NCBI GenBank assembly: GCA_003695765.1
Contig: RFHQ01000118.1
Span: 1-64,000, forward strand
Length of the DNA: 64,000 bases
Source of the DNA: Gammaproteobacteria bacterium
GTDB lineage: Bacteria; Pseudomonadota; Gammaproteobacteria; Steroidobacterales; GCA-2729495
Direction of reading: 5' to 3'
Below the pieces are notes generated by a model. The model saw only the letters and a program-made list of their open reading frames with translations, did not search any database and was not told where the DNA came from. A program made the translations under genes and the position numbers. Positions 1,319 to 12,944 of the stretch are shown piece after piece (position 1 is the first letter of the stretch; each line of letters starts with the position of its first letter).

Positions 1319-2029
1319 ATGCGCCTGCAATCACCGTGGGCCGTCCCGCTGATCGCACTTGCCCTCGCATCGAGGCTCGCCGCCGCGGCCTTCGTCACCA
1401 CCAACCAGGCTGAGATGAGCCAGATCTATGGGCAGCCGGTGTTCGCCACGACACCGATCGACGTGCGTTTCCAGCCGGTCGTGACGATCGTGGCACCGGG
1501 ACTGCTGAATATCACGACGCTGGCCGAACTGAATGCACTCTTTGGCCTGTCGCCGGTGAACGCGCCCGGCATCAACATGTTCTTCGTCGACAGTGTCAGC
1601 GTGTGCAATACGCCGACGCCGGCACCGGGCATCCAGGGATGCGCGACCATCAACGGCAACGACATCGTCGTCGAATCGGTGGCGGCGGCCGATCCCCTGC
1701 CGCTGGCCGGGCCGGTGGGGAGCCTGAGCGCCGGCGCAGCCCTGAACGCCCACGAGCTGGCCCACAACCTCGGCCTGCCGCACATCCCCGAGTGTGCACC
1801 GAGTGTTCCGCCGAATCTGATGGATTGCCTGCTCACAGGCTATGAACTGACGGCCGCTCAGGCGGCGACCGTGCTGGCCAACAGCAGTGTGCTGCAGTCG
1901 GACCCCTCCGGGCTGTTCGTCAGCATCACGCCGATCCTGATCCTGCCGATCCCGGCGCCGCCGGCGCTGCTGCTCTTCGGCAGCGCCCTGATGCTGGGCT
2001 GGCTGAGTCGCCGCCGCGCCGCGCACTGA
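1319..2029 (+). CDS. Secreted metzincin-type zinc protease with a VPLPA/PEP-CTERM-like C-terminal sorting signal
   Basis: N-terminal signal peptide; HELAHNLGLPH (HExxHxxGxxH) plus a possible Met-turn 'PNLMD'; C-terminus PIPAPPALLLFGSALMLGWLSRRRAAH. Confidence 0.75.
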   Translation: MRLQSPWAVPLIALALASRLAAAAFVTTNQAEMSQIYGQPVFATTPIDVRFQPVVTIVAPGLLNITTLAELNALFGLSPVNAPGINMFFVDSVSVCNTPTPAPGIQGCATINGNDIVVESVAAADPLPLAGPVGSLSAGAALNAHELAHNLGLPHIPECAPSVPPNLMDCLLTGYELTAAQAATVLANSSVLQSDPSGLFVSITPILILPIPAPPALLLFGSALMLGWLSRRRAAH

Positions 2030-5307: not shown

Positions 5308-6003
5308 TCAGGTCGTGACTTCGTAGAAGATCCGCCGCGCCGTTTCCTTGCCGATCATCCTGGCGATCATGCCCTGGGCCTTGTCCTGCGTGCGGATGTC
5401 GCTGACGAAGCCGTCGTGGAATTCACGGATGCATTGCAAACGTTGCGGGTCCGTTTCCGGCGCCTGCTGCGCGGCGGCGGGCAGATAGCAGTCCAGGTAG
5501 TCCAAAGCACAGTTGCGCAAATCTTCGAAACGCTGCTTTGGGAACATGCCATAGATCGTGCAGTCGTTGCGGTATTTCAGCATCCATGCCGGGTAACGGT
5601 CGTCGCATTCGAACGATGGATAGCGCCGCAGGCGTTCCAACAGAGGCTCGACCCACTGCGCCCGGTCGCCGGCGTCGTCGAACGGGCAGTTCACGTTCAG
5701 GTGAGCAATCACCTTGCGCTTCGTCAGCAGGCAGAAAAAAATGAAGATCGGCGTGGCCCGGTCGGCTTCTGGATAGAAGATCAGGTTGATCTGGTCCAGC
5801 GGCGGCAGCTTGACGCGGAACCGCATGCCGAACAGCTTGCGGAAGCCGGGCGCTCGCCAATTGTAGTGGTCGGCATCCAGCACCTTGAGGAAGGATTTCG
5901 GCCTGGCCAGCGCCGGGTCCAGCGGCACGGCCTCGACCGGCCCATATTGCCGGACCCGCTCGATTGCCGTGTTCAGGAGCGCGTCGAGTTCGCTGGCGCT
6001 CAT
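5308..6003 (-). CDS. Putative divergent ferredoxin-dependent bilin reductase (FDBR/RCCR-fold)-like protein
   Basis: By-eye correspondence with the PcyA/PebA pattern: APGFRK..., LDQINLIFYPEADRATPIF, PAWMLKYRNDCTIYG, RFEDLRNCALDYLDCYL, and terminal FVSDIRTQDKAQGMIARMIGKETARRIFYEV. Overlaps the molybdoenzyme stop by 4 nt. Confidence 0.5.
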   Translation of the reverse strand: MSASELDALLNTAIERVRQYGPVEAVPLDPALARPKSFLKVLDADHYNWRAPGFRKLFGMRFRVKLPPLDQINLIFYPEADRATPIFIFFCLLTKRKVIAHLNVNCPFDDAGDRAQWVEPLLERLRRYPSFECDDRYPAWMLKYRNDCTIYGMFPKQRFEDLRNCALDYLDCYLPAAAQQAPETDPQRLQCIREFHDGFVSDIRTQDKAQGMIARMIGKETARRIFYEVTT

Positions 6004-8786
6004 GCGGCTGCGTATTTCTCGAAGTCGCAGGTCACATCCTGGAACACGGCGTTCGGTTCGAACTGGAAGGTCCGGTAGTTCACATGCCCCTGCCCGCCAG
6101 CCACGGCTGTCGGCTTGATCAGGCCGAAGGCCGACGTGACCGCACCGAAGTTCTGCCGCCCTCTGAACATCATCGGATCCCAGCCGTGGTACATGAAGGT
6201 CATGCCGGGCTGCATCGCCGGCGAGACGTGCGCCATGGCCACGAAGGCACCGTAGCGGTTGAACACGCGGATCAGTTCGCCATCGGCGACACCGCGCGCG
6301 GCCGCATCGTCCGGGTTGACGTAGATGTCCGGCTCGCCGCGCTGCAGGCCGACGAGCAGCGGATCATCGCGCCACATGCTGTGAATGCCGTGGCGGGCAT
6401 GTCCCATGACCAGCCGCAATGGCGCTGTTCGGTCACCGAGCGGCGCACGGTAGGCAGGCAGCGCTTCGCCCTCCTGCAGGAACCAGTCGTGGTCGATGTA
6501 ATACTGCTGCCGGCCGGTCAGCGTGTGGTAGGGCTTCTTGTCGTTGACGCTGCGGATCAGCGTGTCCCGGTACGGTGATCGCGGACCATAGACGAGCCCA
6601 TCGGAATCGGGCACGCGCGTGATACCGTTGCGCGCCAGCGTGTCGAAGGATTCCTTGGGAAAACCGGGATTGACTGCGATCTGGAAGTCCAGCGCATCGC
6701 GCATGCTCGTATAGGCGCCATTCTTCGTGAACAGCGCGTGGAACTGCGTGAAATCCCTCGTTACCGGCATGCCGAAATAATTGTCTTCGATGGGTGCGAT
6801 GCCGCGTTCCTCAGCGCGTTCGCTGATCGCCTTCGTCAGCCGTACGAACAGTTCGAAATCGTCGACCGCCTCGCCCAGCGGCGGCACGGCCGCGTCCAGG
6901 ACCTGCAGATAAGGTGTCCACTGCCACATGACGATGTCCTGGCGCTCGTAGTGATGCGCGACCGGCAGCACATAGTCCGAATACATGGCCGTCACGCCCA
7001 TGTCGGTCGCGCAGGTCACGATGTGCTCGAGCTGCTCGAAGGCCTCTTCCCGCCAGCGCTTGCCGGAGGCGCGCCAGTTGGCCGCATTGCTGCCCATGTA
7101 GAAACCCATCTTCCACGGGACACGGCCGTATTCCGGGAACCAGCGGTTCTGCACGGACTGCTGGAAGTACCGGTCGAAGTGCTCGGCCAGGGCTTCGCCG
7201 TAGATCTCGCGGTTCAGCTCCTTGCCGCCGGCATGCACATAGTCCCAGCGCGACAGCGTGGCCACGCGCAAGGTCGGCGGCAGGCCATCGAAGGTGAAGG
7301 CCAGCTGGTCCTGGTCCTGGGCGAGGTTCATGAACTGCAGGCCGCCCCCGGGCTTGCCCAGATTGCCGGTCAGTGACAGCAGCAGCAGCATCGATCGCTG
7401 TAGCAGGTCGCCATGCAGCCATTTCGATACCCGGAAGCCGGTGTAGATCATGGCCGGCTTGGCAGCGGCGAAGGTCCGGGCGATCTCGCGGATCACGTCC
7501 GGATGCACGCCGGTGATCTCGCGGGCCCGCTCCGGCGTGTAGGCAGCCAGCTGGTCCTTCAGCAGTTCGAAGACCGTGGTCACCTCGATCGGCCCGGCCG
7601 GGGTCTGGACCTGCCAGCGGCCTTCCAGCGCCGGCCGCAAGCCCCCGAGGCTCAGTCGCTCCGGGTGTTCGGGCACCGGCTGGCCCGGCGGCGGTACCCG
7701 AAAGCCGGTGCCCGGCGCCGCCACCGGCGCGTTTGCAGCCTGGTCCCAGAAATAGAAACGCTGATCGGCGCCGTCACCGGCATCGCCGAGGTCCGCGGCG
7801 CGCAGGAAGCGGCGATTGTCGGTCCGTACCAGAAACGGCAGGTCAGTCTGTTCACGGATGTAGTCCTCGTCGTGGCTGCCGTCCTCGATGATCACCTGCG
7901 CCATCGCCAGTGCCAGCGCCGTATCGGTTCCGGGCTTCGGGTTCACCCACTTGCTCGCATGCATCGCTGTTGGCGTGAATTCCGGCGAGATCGCGACGAC
8001 CTCGGTGCCGTTGTAGCGCGCCTCCCAGAAGAAATGCGCGTCCGGTATCCGCGTGACCGCAGGATTGGCGAACCAGATGAAACAGGCCTTCGACTTGAAG
8101 ATCGATGCCGCGGTGTCGCCGACCAGCGCCTCGCCGATCGTCAGGTAGATGCCGGTCGGGAGGTCGCCGACACCGGCGAAGGCCTCGGGCAACGGGCTGC
8201 CGGTGATGGTCGCGAAGCGCAGCAGGCCCATCAGCGAGGCACGCTTCATCGCCATCTGCGTGCCCAGGCCCATGGTTACCGACTCCGGGCCGTACTGGCT
8301 GCAGGTGTCGATGAAGCGATCGGCGATCTCGATCAGCGCCTGCTCCCAGCTGATACGTTCCCACTTGCCCTGGCCCCGCTCTCCGATCCGCTTCATCGGG
8401 TAGAGCACGCGCTGCCGGCCATACATGTATTTCGCATGCCGCAGGCCTTTCTGACAGCCGCGCGGCCCGTAGTCCGGCGCGTCCGGGTCCGACTTGCCGT
8501 ACTGGCCCTGCTGTTCCTCGCGCCAGACGATGCCGTTCTTGACATAGACATTGAAGGCGCAGCCGCCCTGGCAATTGGTGCCGTGTGAACCATGGGCGAC
8601 CCGGTCCCAGGTCCACTTGTGACGCATCAGGTCTTCCCAGCGGCCGTAGCCCTCGTCTGCGACCTGGCCGGCGGCGTTTGCATACTTGAGGCTGAGTGCG
8701 ACTGCACCGCCGCCCGCGAGAAACCCGCGCCGTGTCGTTGCCCTGCCTGCTGCCATCGCTGCCTCCCCTGCTATCCGCTCAGCCAT
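6000..8786 (-). CDS. Type II DMSO-reductase-family molybdopterin oxidoreductase alpha subunit (ethylbenzene dehydrogenase/steroid C25 dehydrogenase-like), Tat-exported
   Basis: Tat motif TTRRGFLAGGGAV; Fe-S site HGTNCQGGCAFNVYVKNGIVWREEQ...RGCQKG; NPAVTRIPDAHFFWEARYNG; PGTDTALALAMAQVIIEDG...REQTDLPFLVRTDN. Start taken at MAERIAGEAAM, 8 nt inside the upstream gene. Confidence 0.85.
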   Translation of the reverse strand: MAERIAGEAAMAAGRATTRRGFLAGGGAVALSLKYANAAGQVADEGYGRWEDLMRHKWTWDRVAHGSHGTNCQGGCAFNVYVKNGIVWREEQQGQYGKSDPDAPDYGPRGCQKGLRHAKYMYGRQRVLYPMKRIGERGQGKWERISWEQALIEIADRFIDTCSQYGPESVTMGLGTQMAMKRASLMGLLRFATITGSPLPEAFAGVGDLPTGIYLTIGEALVGDTAASIFKSKACFIWFANPAVTRIPDAHFFWEARYNGTEVVAISPEFTPTAMHASKWVNPKPGTDTALALAMAQVIIEDGSHDEDYIREQTDLPFLVRTDNRRFLRAADLGDAGDGADQRFYFWDQAANAPVAAPGTGFRVPPPGQPVPEHPERLSLGGLRPALEGRWQVQTPAGPIEVTTVFELLKDQLAAYTPERAREITGVHPDVIREIARTFAAAKPAMIYTGFRVSKWLHGDLLQRSMLLLLSLTGNLGKPGGGLQFMNLAQDQDQLAFTFDGLPPTLRVATLSRWDYVHAGGKELNREIYGEALAEHFDRYFQQSVQNRWFPEYGRVPWKMGFYMGSNAANWRASGKRWREEAFEQLEHIVTCATDMGVTAMYSDYVLPVAHHYERQDIVMWQWTPYLQVLDAAVPPLGEAVDDFELFVRLTKAISERAEERGIAPIEDNYFGMPVTRDFTQFHALFTKNGAYTSMRDALDFQIAVNPGFPKESFDTLARNGITRVPDSDGLVYGPRSPYRDTLIRSVNDKKPYHTLTGRQQYYIDHDWFLQEGEALPAYRAPLGDRTAPLRLVMGHARHGIHSMWRDDPLLVGLQRGEPDIYVNPDDAAARGVADGELIRVFNRYGAFVAMAHVSPAMQPGMTFMYHGWDPMMFRGRQNFGAVTSAFGLIKPTAVAGGQGHVNYRTFQFEPNAVFQDVTCDFEKYAAA

Positions 8787-9402
8787 GTTGTCCCGGCATG
8801 ACGAAACGCCGCCCGCTGGCCTGACCGAGCGCATATTCGACCAGCGGCATGCTTTCGTTGCCGTGGAACATCCGTTCGCCGACGAACATCGTCGCCGACG
8901 CAAAACCGCCGCGCGCCGCGAGTTCCCGTGCGTTGGCCGCCAGCGCTTCGGCGGTGCCGGGATCCGCCAGCGCCGAGTGGAACGCCGCGCCTTCCAGGCC
9001 GGCCGCCGCCGCGAGTTCCAGCAGGGCCGCCTCGGTCAGCGGCGGCTCGCCGCGCCCGAACTCGGCGGCCCAGACCGCCTCGGCGTAGGCGCGGGCCCGT
9101 TCCGTCGCCGCCGCGTAGACCGCGCCACGGGCGGCCAGCGTCAGCTCGGCGGGCCAGCCCTCGGGCAATTGCAGCGGTCGTGCGCAGAAATCGGCCCAGG
9201 CGGCCAGCATGCGCTGCGCATGCGCCCGCCGCGGCGGTTCGGCGGGCCAGCGCTGCTCAGCAGCCGACCGGCCGAGGTCGCTCAGCCGGAACGGCCGCCA
9301 GCGAATGCGCGCGCCGGTGCGCACGGCAGCCTCGTGCAAGCGCCCGGCCGCGAGGTAGGTCCACGGGCAACTCAGGTCGAAAAAGAACTCGACCTCGGCC
9401 AT
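8779..9402 (-). CDS. DsbA-family thioredoxin-fold protein (2-hydroxychromene-2-carboxylate isomerase/FrnE-like)
   Basis: MAEVEFFFDLSCPWTYLAAGRLHE N-terminus and a C-terminal GGFASATMFVGERMFHGNESMPLVEYAL segment. Confidence 0.75.
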   Translation of the reverse strand: MAEVEFFFDLSCPWTYLAAGRLHEAAVRTGARIRWRPFRLSDLGRSAAEQRWPAEPPRRAHAQRMLAAWADFCARPLQLPEGWPAELTLAARGAVYAAATERARAYAEAVWAAEFGRGEPPLTEAALLELAAAAGLEGAAFHSALADPGTAEALAANARELAARGGFASATMFVGERMFHGNESMPLVEYALGQASGRRFVMPGQHG

Positions 9403-9408
9403 GGGCCG

Positions 9409-10944
9409 TCAGCCGCGCCGGCGCAGCTCGGTCTTCAGGACCTTGCCGCTGGCATTGCGCGGGATCTGTTCGAGCAATTCGATCTCGCGCGGAATCTTCA
9501 TCCGTGAGATCCGCGGCTCGCACCACGCCTGCAGGCCGTCCGCTTCGAGTTCGGCGCCAGGCCGCGGCACGACGAAAGCCTTGAGTCGCTCGCCCCATTT
9601 CTCGTCCGGCACGCCGATCACCGCGACGTCGCTGATATCCGGGTGCTGGTGCAAGACCTCTTCGATTTCCCGCGGATAGATGTTGATGCCGCCGGAGATC
9701 ACCATGTCCTTCTTGCGATCGACGATGTAGATATAGCCCTCGGCATCCCGCCGCGCCAGATCGCCGACCGTGACCCAACCATCGTGGTAGGCCTCGGCGG
9801 TGGCCTCAGGGCGCCCCCAGTAGCCGTTGAACAGGTATGGGCTGCTGGAGAACAGTTCGCCGACTTCGTCCGCGTCGCAGAGGCTGCCGTCATCGCGCCG
9901 GATCTCGACGCGGGTCAGCGCGATCGGTTGTCCGACGCACTGTTGCTTGCGCAACTGGTCGGCCGGCCGCAGGTTGGTGACGATGCCCGCCTCGGTGGAG
10001 CCATAGGTCTCGTGCAGCAGCCCGGCGCCGAAATACTCGACCAGGCGTTCTTTCAGGGCCTGTGGCAGCGGTGCGGCATTCGAGATCACGCTGCGCAAGT
10101 GCCGTGGCCTGAACTGCGCCAGTGTCGCCTCCGGCAGATTCATCATCAGGTGAAAATGCGTCGGCACGCCGAAGAAGCCGGTCATCTGCTGTTCGCCGAG
10201 GCTGCGCAGCACGGCCTCCGGGTCGAAGCTGTCCATGATCTCCAGGTGGCCGCCGAAGAAGATCGGCGCGAGAGAAAAGATCATTCCCGCGCCGTGGCAC
10301 ATCGGCGCGATGGCCAGGAAACGGTCGTCCGGCGAATAGCAGCCGTACTCCACGGCCATGGCGAACAGGGTCAGGATCCGCGAGCGGTGGGGCACCAGCA
10401 CCCCCTTCGGCCGGCCCGTCGTGCCGGAGGTATAGGGGATCGTGAACACGCCCCATTCGGCGACGCCCGGTTTCGGCACCGGGCCATGGGCCGCGGCCAG
10501 CAGCGACTCGAGTTCCGGGCCGATCTCGACGAGCCGCTGGACGCTCGAGAACGAGGCATCCCGCAGGCGCGCGGCATTGTCGGCGTCAGTGAACAGCACG
10601 CGCGCCTGCGCGTCGTCACAGATCGCGACGACCTCCGCCGTTGCCAGCTTCGGATTCACCGTGGCCAGTGCCACACCGCTGGCGGCCGCGCCGAGGACGA
10701 TTTCCAGGTATTCGATCGAGTTGCGCGCGACGATGGCTGCATGGTCGCCGGCGCTCAGTCCGAGGCCTTGCGTGATCGCGTTGCCCACCCGCTCGATTCG
10801 TTCGACCAGCTCGCCGTAGCGTCGCTGCCGGTTCCCGTGGCGGCAGGCAATCTTGTCCGGCGCCCGGCTGGCGGCGGCGCGTACCCCGTCGGCCAGCGAC
10901 AGGTGCTGGAAGGAAAATGGCAGTTCCGGGCTGCGTGGGGGCAT
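9409..10944 (-). CDS. AMP-dependent acyl-CoA synthetase/ligase
   Basis: AMP-binding motif YTSGTTGRPKGV; ETYGSTEAG; GDLARRDAEGYIYIVDRKKDMVISGGINIYPREIEE. Confidence 0.92.
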   Translation of the reverse strand: MPPRSPELPFSFQHLSLADGVRAAASRAPDKIACRHGNRQRRYGELVERIERVGNAITQGLGLSAGDHAAIVARNSIEYLEIVLGAAASGVALATVNPKLATAEVVAICDDAQARVLFTDADNAARLRDASFSSVQRLVEIGPELESLLAAAHGPVPKPGVAEWGVFTIPYTSGTTGRPKGVLVPHRSRILTLFAMAVEYGCYSPDDRFLAIAPMCHGAGMIFSLAPIFFGGHLEIMDSFDPEAVLRSLGEQQMTGFFGVPTHFHLMMNLPEATLAQFRPRHLRSVISNAAPLPQALKERLVEYFGAGLLHETYGSTEAGIVTNLRPADQLRKQQCVGQPIALTRVEIRRDDGSLCDADEVGELFSSSPYLFNGYWGRPEATAEAYHDGWVTVGDLARRDAEGYIYIVDRKKDMVISGGINIYPREIEEVLHQHPDISDVAVIGVPDEKWGERLKAFVVPRPGAELEADGLQAWCEPRISRMKIPREIELLEQIPRNASGKVLKTELRRRG

Positions 10945-10950
10945 GGTCCC

Positions 10951-11808
10951 TCAGCCCGGCAGTTTGAATACGCGCAGTGCGTTGTCGCGCATCAGCAAGC
11001 GCTTGGCGTCCTCGCGCAGCCCCAGCGCATCGACCTCGTGCACGGCACGCTCCGGATCGATGACCGGCCAGTCGGTGCCGAACATCACCTTGTGCTTGCC
11101 ATAGCTGTTCGCGTAATGCACGAAGGACTCGGGCCAGTAGCGCGGCGCGTAGGCATCGCCGGCCGTGTAGACATTCTCGTGTTTCCAGCACATGGAGATC
11201 ATTTCCTCGGTCCACGGGATGCCGATGTGGATGCCGATGAGCCTCAGCTCCGGAAAATCGATGGCCACCTGGTCGAGGCAGATCGGTCGCCCGACGCTCG
11301 GCAGGCGCCGCTCGCGGGAATACACGAGGTTGTGGCCAACCTGCATCATGATCGGGATGTCCAGCTCGCAGCACTTGGCGTAATAGGGGTAATACTTTGC
11401 GTGGTCCGGCGGCAGCTCGCACCAGTGCGGATACAGGTGAGCGCCGACGAAGTCATACTCGCGCACCGCCTGCTCCAGGTCCCGCAGCCCACGCATGCCG
11501 CGAAAGGGGTCGATACCGGCGAGGCCGGAGAAACGCTCGGGATATTGCCGGCAGACTTCGTAGACCCGCTCGTAGGGGATCTCGAAACCGCCGCGCCTGT
11601 TGATGTCACCGGCGCGGACCGCGATCAGCAGCGAGCGTTCGATGCCAGCGCGATCCATGCGCTGCAGGTAGTCCTCGATCGGCACGCCGCCGCGGATCTC
11701 CTCGGGCATGCGCACTTGGGCCTTGAAGGCCTCGTCCAGGCCCGTCTGCCCCCTCTCGACCTCGAGCGGGGTAAAAAGATTACAAACAATATCAATGGCT
11801 CCAGCCAT
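10951..11808 (-). CDS. Amidohydrolase_2 (ACMSD-like) family protein
   Basis: IGIHIGIPWTEEMISM, KVMFGTDWPVIDPE; overall ACMSD-like layout; N-terminal HxH motif replaced by VCN. Confidence 0.8.
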   Translation of the reverse strand: MAGAIDIVCNLFTPLEVERGQTGLDEAFKAQVRMPEEIRGGVPIEDYLQRMDRAGIERSLLIAVRAGDINRRGGFEIPYERVYEVCRQYPERFSGLAGIDPFRGMRGLRDLEQAVREYDFVGAHLYPHWCELPPDHAKYYPYYAKCCELDIPIMMQVGHNLVYSRERRLPSVGRPICLDQVAIDFPELRLIGIHIGIPWTEEMISMCWKHENVYTAGDAYAPRYWPESFVHYANSYGKHKVMFGTDWPVIDPERAVHEVDALGLREDAKRLLMRDNALRVFKLPG

Positions 11809-11844: not shown

Positions 11845-12750
11845 TTACCAGCCGTCGAGGTCCCACTCGCCGGTCGAACGCGAGCGCACCGGGATGCCGG
11901 CGATCACCGGCGCCTCGGTGACCGGGTCGTAGTTCACGGCATCGCCCTCGACGATCACGCGCTCGTTCACGGTAATCCAGTTCACCAGGCTGCCGTCGAG
12001 GCGGAAGAAGCCGGTCCAGCCCTTTTCCTCGCCGGCCACGAAATGCCCGTGCTTCACGCGCGCCGGGCGGAAGAAATAGGTGCCTGCATCGAGGGTACCG
12101 AAGTTGTAGACCAGGTGCCCGTCGAGACTGTAGGCCTCCTCGAAGACCGGGTGATGCACCATGCGGTTGTCCGACCAGCCGGGTGGCGCCCAGGCCAGCA
12201 TCGTGACGAAACCGGTGTTGTTGTCGTCCGGCGAAGCCGGATCCAGGTACAGCAGCTTGAGCTTCAGGAAGCGTTGGGTATCGCCCTCGTAAACGTTGGG
12301 CATCCATTCCATGCGGCTGGTGTCGACCACGGTCAGTTCGCCGGGTTCGTCCGACACGGTATTGCCGCCGCGTGGCACGAACTTGTCGCGGTTGCCCTTC
12401 GCCGCGGTGAAGCCCCAGTCACCGTATTCCCGGAACAGCAGAATCTCCGAGCCTGCCTGCACCGAGATCTCCGGCACCCAGAGGCCGGCGGGCGCTCGGA
12501 AATACGCCCCCTTGCCGAGCAAGCGGTCGCCCAGCTTGACGGCTCCATCCATGACAAACCACTCGACATCGGCATTGTGATAGCCGGCCGGCCGGTGCCA
12601 GGCACTGTCGAAGTGCAGGCGCGTCGACGCGGCGCCGTTCTCCTCGTCGTAGGACAGGTTCCGCTGGCGCACGCGGCCCTCGCCGCCGTACAGCTCGGCG
12701 GCATGCCAGCAGAGGTCTTCGGCCTGGATCAGTTCAACATGGGGTCGCAT
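11845..12750 (-). CDS. Cupin-domain protein
   Basis: MRPHVELIQAEDLCWHAAELYGGEG...; beta-rich cupin-like repeats (GAYFRAPAGLWVPEISVQAGSEILLFREYGDW). Confidence 0.65.
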   Translation of the reverse strand: MRPHVELIQAEDLCWHAAELYGGEGRVRQRNLSYDEENGAASTRLHFDSAWHRPAGYHNADVEWFVMDGAVKLGDRLLGKGAYFRAPAGLWVPEISVQAGSEILLFREYGDWGFTAAKGNRDKFVPRGGNTVSDEPGELTVVDTSRMEWMPNVYEGDTQRFLKLKLLYLDPASPDDNNTGFVTMLAWAPPGWSDNRMVHHPVFEEAYSLDGHLVYNFGTLDAGTYFFRPARVKHGHFVAGEEKGWTGFFRLDGSLVNWITVNERVIVEGDAVNYDPVTEAPVIAGIPVRSRSTGEWDLDGW

Positions 12751-12944
12751 CGAATCTCCTCGGAACCATCGCCTGGCCGGCACGCCGGCCCTGTCAGTAG
12801 ACTATCAACAGTTTCCCTTGAGGGCGCAAGCGCCGCCGCGGCGCCCCGCCCTGCGGTCGCCGCATTGCATCGCCCGGGCGCGCCGGGCTGCGGGCCGGGA
12901 TTTTGCGGTATCGTTCCGGGGCAGCATCTGTTCAGGGTCCGCCA

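Follow-up and report, generated by a model that had tools for sequence, protein, structure and literature searches.

The window, which is the whole 64,000-nucleotide stretch of DNA analysed here, encodes on its minus strand (5308–6003) an FDBR-fold protein of 231 amino acids. FDBRs produce the pigments of phytochromes and phycobilisomes, the province of light sensing and of plants and algae. The open reading frame runs from an ATG at 6003 to 5308 and is the only one at these coordinates; the peptide blocks that an earlier note had quoted are all found in its product. We regard the frame as a real gene, since its GC3 of 0.83 is similar to that of the adjoining genes and its orthologs are 55–80% identical to the window protein along the chain. 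The source genome (G000; 2.57 Mb in 222 contigs, 92% complete), from an uncultured and apparently non-photosynthetic bacterium, carries this single FDBR-fold gene.

The gene is the last of a minus-strand operon. Reading towards it, the operon encodes a cupin (DUF4437/ChrR-like; 11845–12783), an amidohydrolase (Amidohydro_2; 10951–11808), an AMP-forming acyl-CoA ligase (9409–10944), a DsbA-family protein (Pfam DSBA; 8779–9402) and a TAT-type molybdopterin oxidoreductase (6000–8903) of the type II DMSO reductase alpha family, a relative of perchlorate reductase and ethylbenzene dehydrogenase. The stop codon of the oxidoreductase gene overlaps the FDBR-fold start codon as ATGA. This alpha gene has no neighbour coding for a beta (Fe-S) or a gamma (heme b) subunit. 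Two such molybdenum alpha paralogs are typical of genomes of the family, and a CN-hydrolase gene often precedes the second. Elsewhere in the window (1319–2029) lies a gene for a predicted secreted protein with an HELAHNLGLPH metalloprotease motif, a PEP-CTERM-like tail and no Pfam match.

Family membership and fold

Sequence and structure comparisons place the protein in the FDBR/RCCR superfamily. Its single Pfam match is to Fe_bilin_red (PF05996), at 46.7 bits against a curated cut-off of 31 (E=4.1e-12), and the match is full length (residues 12–228 on profile positions 3–224 of 228). In the same search, c1 orthologs (the clade defined below) from sister genomes scored up to about 74 bits and cyanophage PebS scored 65. 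Used alone as a phmmer query, the protein found 6qwq, a bilin reductase of Guillardia (E=4.7e-5); a profile of its orthologs searched against the PDB recovered GtPEBB (2.6e-14), PebA (5e-6), HY2 (3e-5) and PcyA (0.002). In these searches, the FDBR-like pattern that the earlier note had claimed goes well beyond chance. Orthology to PebA, PebB or PcyA is excluded, since the NCBIfam equivalog models of all three matched only weakly and far under their cut-offs.

An AlphaFold2 model built with 19 orthologs in the input (pLDDT 92.9, pTM 0.91) has the FDBR alpha/beta/alpha fold. In a Foldseek search of the PDB, the best 33 matches were all FDBRs, among them PebB, HY2, PebA and PcyA, or RCCRs, with TM-scores by query length of up to 0.85. 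The structure comparison that the note had proposed thus finds the expected sandwich. The all-helical TorD/NarJ/EbdD chaperone domain, raised there in its TorD/NarJ form as an alternative, is ruled out by the lack of any such Pfam match and by the mixed alpha/beta model. It is as good as certain that the window protein is a genuine member of the FDBR/RCCR superfamily. With that fold and Fe_bilin_red as its sole Pfam match, the choice originally offered, between an outlying FDBR with another substrate and a tetrapyrrole-binding accessory protein, is retained.

Distribution and phylogeny of the clade

FDBR-fold genes occur in 24 of 40 genomes of the source GTDB family, versus none of 398 other sampled Pseudomonadota. 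Three ortholog groups can be told apart within the family: c1, which contains the window protein; c2, with proteins mostly of about 300 aa; and c24, with proteins of about 240 aa. The c1 group spans at least 21 species including the source, nearly all from one uncultured gammaproteobacterial family. A scan of a genome collection, keyed on two conserved C-terminal peptides, accounts for at least 20 further species, all represented by metagenome-assembled genomes, nearly all of them under the labels Gammaproteobacteria, Chromatiales or Pseudomonadota; as just these two peptides were sought, the figure is a minimum. Its outliers were one genome labelled Rhodospirillales, which by kinship belongs to the window's own order, and one labelled Alphaproteobacterium, whose protein is 50% identical. 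Among plasmids there was just a weak partial match annotated wrbA, and among phages just weak partial matches to a cyanophage FDBR.

For the tree, c1 was set against cyanophage and cyanobacterial PebA, PebB, PebS and PcyA, tomato HY2, Guillardia PEBB and seven Methylococcales-type FDBRs (L114–L120); RCCR, pre-2, pre-3 and Schekmanbacteria sequences were left out. We infer both the label ‘pre-1’ and the order name of the seven-sequence set, the order having been reached through a pMMO-bearing genome; the FDBR genes of the set have globin-like and V4R-like neighbours, as described for pre-1 (PMC10151467). In the resulting tree, c1 is monophyletic (support 98/98) and the known FDBRs, including the pre-1-type set, group apart (88/95), on long branches. 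In the best trees c1 is thus a distinct clade outside PebA, PebB/HY2, PebS, PcyA and the Methylococcales pre-1-type set, although a single group of c1 and pre-1 is compatible with the data by the AU test (p 0.163). Grouping c1 with PebB/HY2 is rejected at the borderline (AU p 0.048). FDBRs of the pre-PcyA type have already been reported from heterotrophic bacteria (PMC10151467), and heterotroph FDBRs in general are therefore not new; no description of the c1 clade was found in the open-licence papers searched.

The c1 genes tend to occur with a paralog: 14 of 19 c1 genomes also carry c2 or c24, versus 5 of 21 others (Fisher p 0.004, uncorrected for kinship), and c2 and c24 were found together in G007 only. 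Some c2 members from sister genomes (L048:9546-10454, L034:9532-10425 and others) have C-terminal matches to PCP_red, the domain of the protochlorophyllide reductase 57 kD subunit, at E=7.9e-6 and 0.0011, both under the curated cut-off. At the columns of PcyA D105 and E76, the c2 proteins retain Asp and Glu, respectively. Related MFS transporters and luciferase-like monooxygenases are frequently encoded close to both c2 (L034, L039, L060) and c24 (L061, L057, L042, L063) genes.

Active-site residues and genomic partners

In PcyA, Asp105 is the residue that protonates bilins, and a second Asp (PebS D206) is usual outside PcyA and pre-1. Residue columns were scored in three alignment modes over 20 c1 and 37 other FDBR-fold sequences. 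In all three modes, the PcyA D105 column holds Asn in 20/20 c1 sequences and Asp in 37/37 others. This residue, at the position of the central proton-donating Asp, is Asn103 in the window protein (codon 5695–5697; this and the following codons lie on the minus strand and were computed from the start at 6003). Two residues ahead of it, with the same strand parity, is His101 (5701–5703), found in every c1 sequence (20/20) and nowhere else. The second catalytic Asp (PebS D206/PcyA D220) is Asp207 (5383–5385), likewise invariant in the 20 c1 sequences and missing from the pre-1-type set. The column of PcyA His88 is Asn73 in the window protein, and is also Asn in PebA, PebB, PebS and c24. The earlier residue claims, namely Asn for His88, a non-acidic residue for Asp105 and a kept C-terminal D-K pair (Asp207-Lys208), all hold across the alignment modes. 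Their emphasis needs correction: the His88 change was misplaced as a peculiarity, being normal outside PcyA, and the loss of Asp105 is real, clade-wide and accompanied by a new His. Pre-1 is stated to lack D105 (PMC10151467). Contrary to that statement, L114–L120 have Asp in this column; the alignments or the sets may differ.

Conservation within c1 is concentrated on the pocket side. For the three strands to which PcyA E76, H88 and D105 map, mean entropy is 0.29 bits at pocket parity versus 1.26 bits at the other (permutation p 1e-4), and invariant residues make up 9 of 16 positions on the pocket side versus 1 of 14 on the other, with pocket facing taken from strand parity and PcyA positions rather than coordinates. 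Such a pattern indicates selection on a putative ligand site. The C-terminal helix and tail (DIRTQDKAQ...RIFYE.TT) are also almost invariant in c1. As for the consequences of Asn103, the D105N mutant of PcyA is reported to generate substrate radicals and to retain about 10% activity, with the reaction not completed (PMC9800206). Asn103 therefore does not forbid electron uptake. Nonetheless, because the PcyA mutant is nearly dead for product formation, the clade-wide Asn103 could, by analogy, mean lost catalysis. With the central Asp missing and any activity putative, the functional label ‘bilin reductase’ is not earned.

The canonical partners of FDBRs were likewise not found. The earlier note had seen no heme oxygenase or phytochrome in the window, and this holds genome-wide: G000 (92% complete) has no match to PF01126 (heme oxygenase) or PF00360 (the PHY domain of phytochrome). 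With G000 counted, the search covered 14 of the family's c1 genomes, and in addition G041 from another family. None of the 13 further c1 genomes has an above-cut-off PF01126 match, G010 alone giving a sub-threshold one, and PF00360 has no match in the c1 genomes searched. A role in supplying a bilin photoreceptor is rejected on this absence of the PHY domain from the c1 genomes searched. No gene for a bilin-using protein, heme oxygenase or ferredoxin was seen beside the FDBR-fold gene. Photosynthetic use is rejected as well, as a reaction centre occurs in just one searched c1 genome, G003. This genome of the same genus (L100, G003:C24) encodes two photosynthetic reaction centre proteins, and the other searched genomes of the genus encode none. 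Nothing points to a chlorophyll substrate: the Rieske oxygenases near c1 genes are VanA-type (VanA_C), not of the pheophorbide-a-oxygenase type, and no Staygreen was seen in a search run without a positive control. A PaO/RCCR-like route of chlorophyll breakdown is set aside on these two observations.

Several known systems are instructive by comparison. PebB, HY2 and PebA (6qx6, 6kme, 2x9o) are the best sequence relatives and resemble c1 in fold across the whole chain (TM 0.81–0.85). In the PcyA His88 column PebB and PebA have Asn like c1, HY2 having Asp instead, and all three share the second Asp. In contrast to these enzymes, c1 has Asn for the central Asp, the unique His101, Lys rather than Pro after the second Asp, and a clade of its own. 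PcyA and pre-PcyA share the FDBR fold; pre-PcyA likewise comes from heterotrophic bacteria, and PcyA Glu76 is absent from c1 as it is from pre-PcyA (Rockwell, Martin and Lagarias 2023, PMC10151467). However, c1 lacks Asp105, which is kept in published pre-2 and pre-3 (PMC10151467). RCCR (3aga, 2zxk) matches at a Foldseek E of about 1e-9 and TM 0.75–0.81 by query length, but at 11–13% identity and with no chlorophyll-breakdown partner found with c1; only a likeness of fold was seen. Finally, the ‘PcyA1’ chain of the FtsHi chloroplast motor (8xks, 8xqw) matches in fold (E 7e-7) and profile (E 0.0011). It is eukaryotic and far longer than c1, and serves as a prior example of an FDBR built into a different complex.

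Candidate functions of the clade

The c1 proteins retain the fold, a conserved pocket and the second Asp (D207), swap the central Asp for Asn103 and add His101. We tentatively favour, as the leading explanation if one short of probable, a divergent reductase that has an altered proton relay and acts on a tetrapyrrole-like ligand. The FDBR cleft would bind a linear tetrapyrrole or a similar conjugated compound, to be reduced with electrons from a ferredoxin-type donor, while His101 and Asp207 would take over the part of Asp105 in a rearranged proton relay. As no canonical heme oxygenase was found, biliverdin produced by such an enzyme in the cell itself is probably not the ligand. That c1 is a new FDBR branch in heterotrophs, with a His/Asn relay and a tetrapyrrole-like substrate from a source other than its own heme oxygenase (e.g. 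scavenged pigment breakdown products), is rather unlikely. Next after the favoured reductase comes a protein that only binds: a retired FDBR acting as a non-reducing tetrapyrrole carrier, sensor or scavenger, whose pocket would hold, hide or present a pigment. Although less than likely, it has several points in its favour. The sole residue lost is the one by which the substrate is charged so that it can take up electrons (PMC9800206); Chlamydomonas PCYA1, which binds LPOR, is a precedent for moonlighting (PMC5974162), as is the FDBR-fold chain in the FtsHi motor; and the near-invariant C-terminal helix and tail are as expected of a partner surface. Against it, neither Asp207 nor the added His varies, and both lie on the pocket side, a pattern suggestive of catalysis.

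The remaining explanations depend on the surroundings of c1 genes, annotated by clustering, by Pfam searches of selected genes and by reading. The operon arrangement occurs with c1 in eight genomes, the window's included, partly reduced in some, and UbiD, nitrilase-type and transporter genes lie near several of these loci. This catabolic appearance, together with the missing heme oxygenase (PF01126) in G000, would suit a reductase or binder of a non-tetrapyrrole compound in aromatic or xenobiotic catabolism, with just the fold inherited from FDBRs. Such a role is improbable, as in other genomes c1 stands in unrelated surroundings (after hisE, or beside glycosyltransferase-like, carbamoyltransferase or Rieske oxygenase genes) and the catabolic operon persists without it. 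The same facts bear on a maturation chaperone or subunit of the adjoining molybdoenzyme, standing in for a beta subunit or a TorD/EbdD-like chaperone. The ATGA overlap, the adjacency in eight genomes and a c1 gene beside a different molybdenum oxidoreductase in G041 speak for it; yet the operon is kept in G012, G014 and G018, where no c1 was found, and the FDBR gene lies elsewhere, apart from the operon, in G007, G011, G017, G019 and G024. In G021 only 2 bp separate the stop of the molybdenum gene from the gene that follows, at a junction where sister genomes carry the FDBR gene; this genome is 78% complete and could hold a copy elsewhere, but the junction is contiguous. Because the operon persists without the FDBR gene, the link is optional, an obligate chaperone or subunit is ruled out, and a role in molybdoenzyme maturation is the most improbable of all the explanations weighed here. 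Slightly less remote, though still highly doubtful, is an ordinary divergent pre-1 pre-PcyA, that is, a biliverdin reductase as already described in heterotrophs. The AU test and the report of pre-1 from gammaproteobacteria (PMC10151467) are consistent with it. However, the best trees place c1 outside the known FDBRs; the pre-1 cluster of HO, an Fe-S protein, two V4R proteins and a globin (PMC10151467) was not seen in the c1 neighbourhoods read; and the pre-1-type set, with Asp at D105 and without D207, is the reverse of c1.

The c1 clade offers a natural counterpart to the well-studied D105N mutants of PcyA and PebS, at a time when the origin of FDBRs is an active question. By keeping the fold and the pocket without the canonical partners, these proteins either extend the chemistry of the superfamily or show its conversion to a binding protein.
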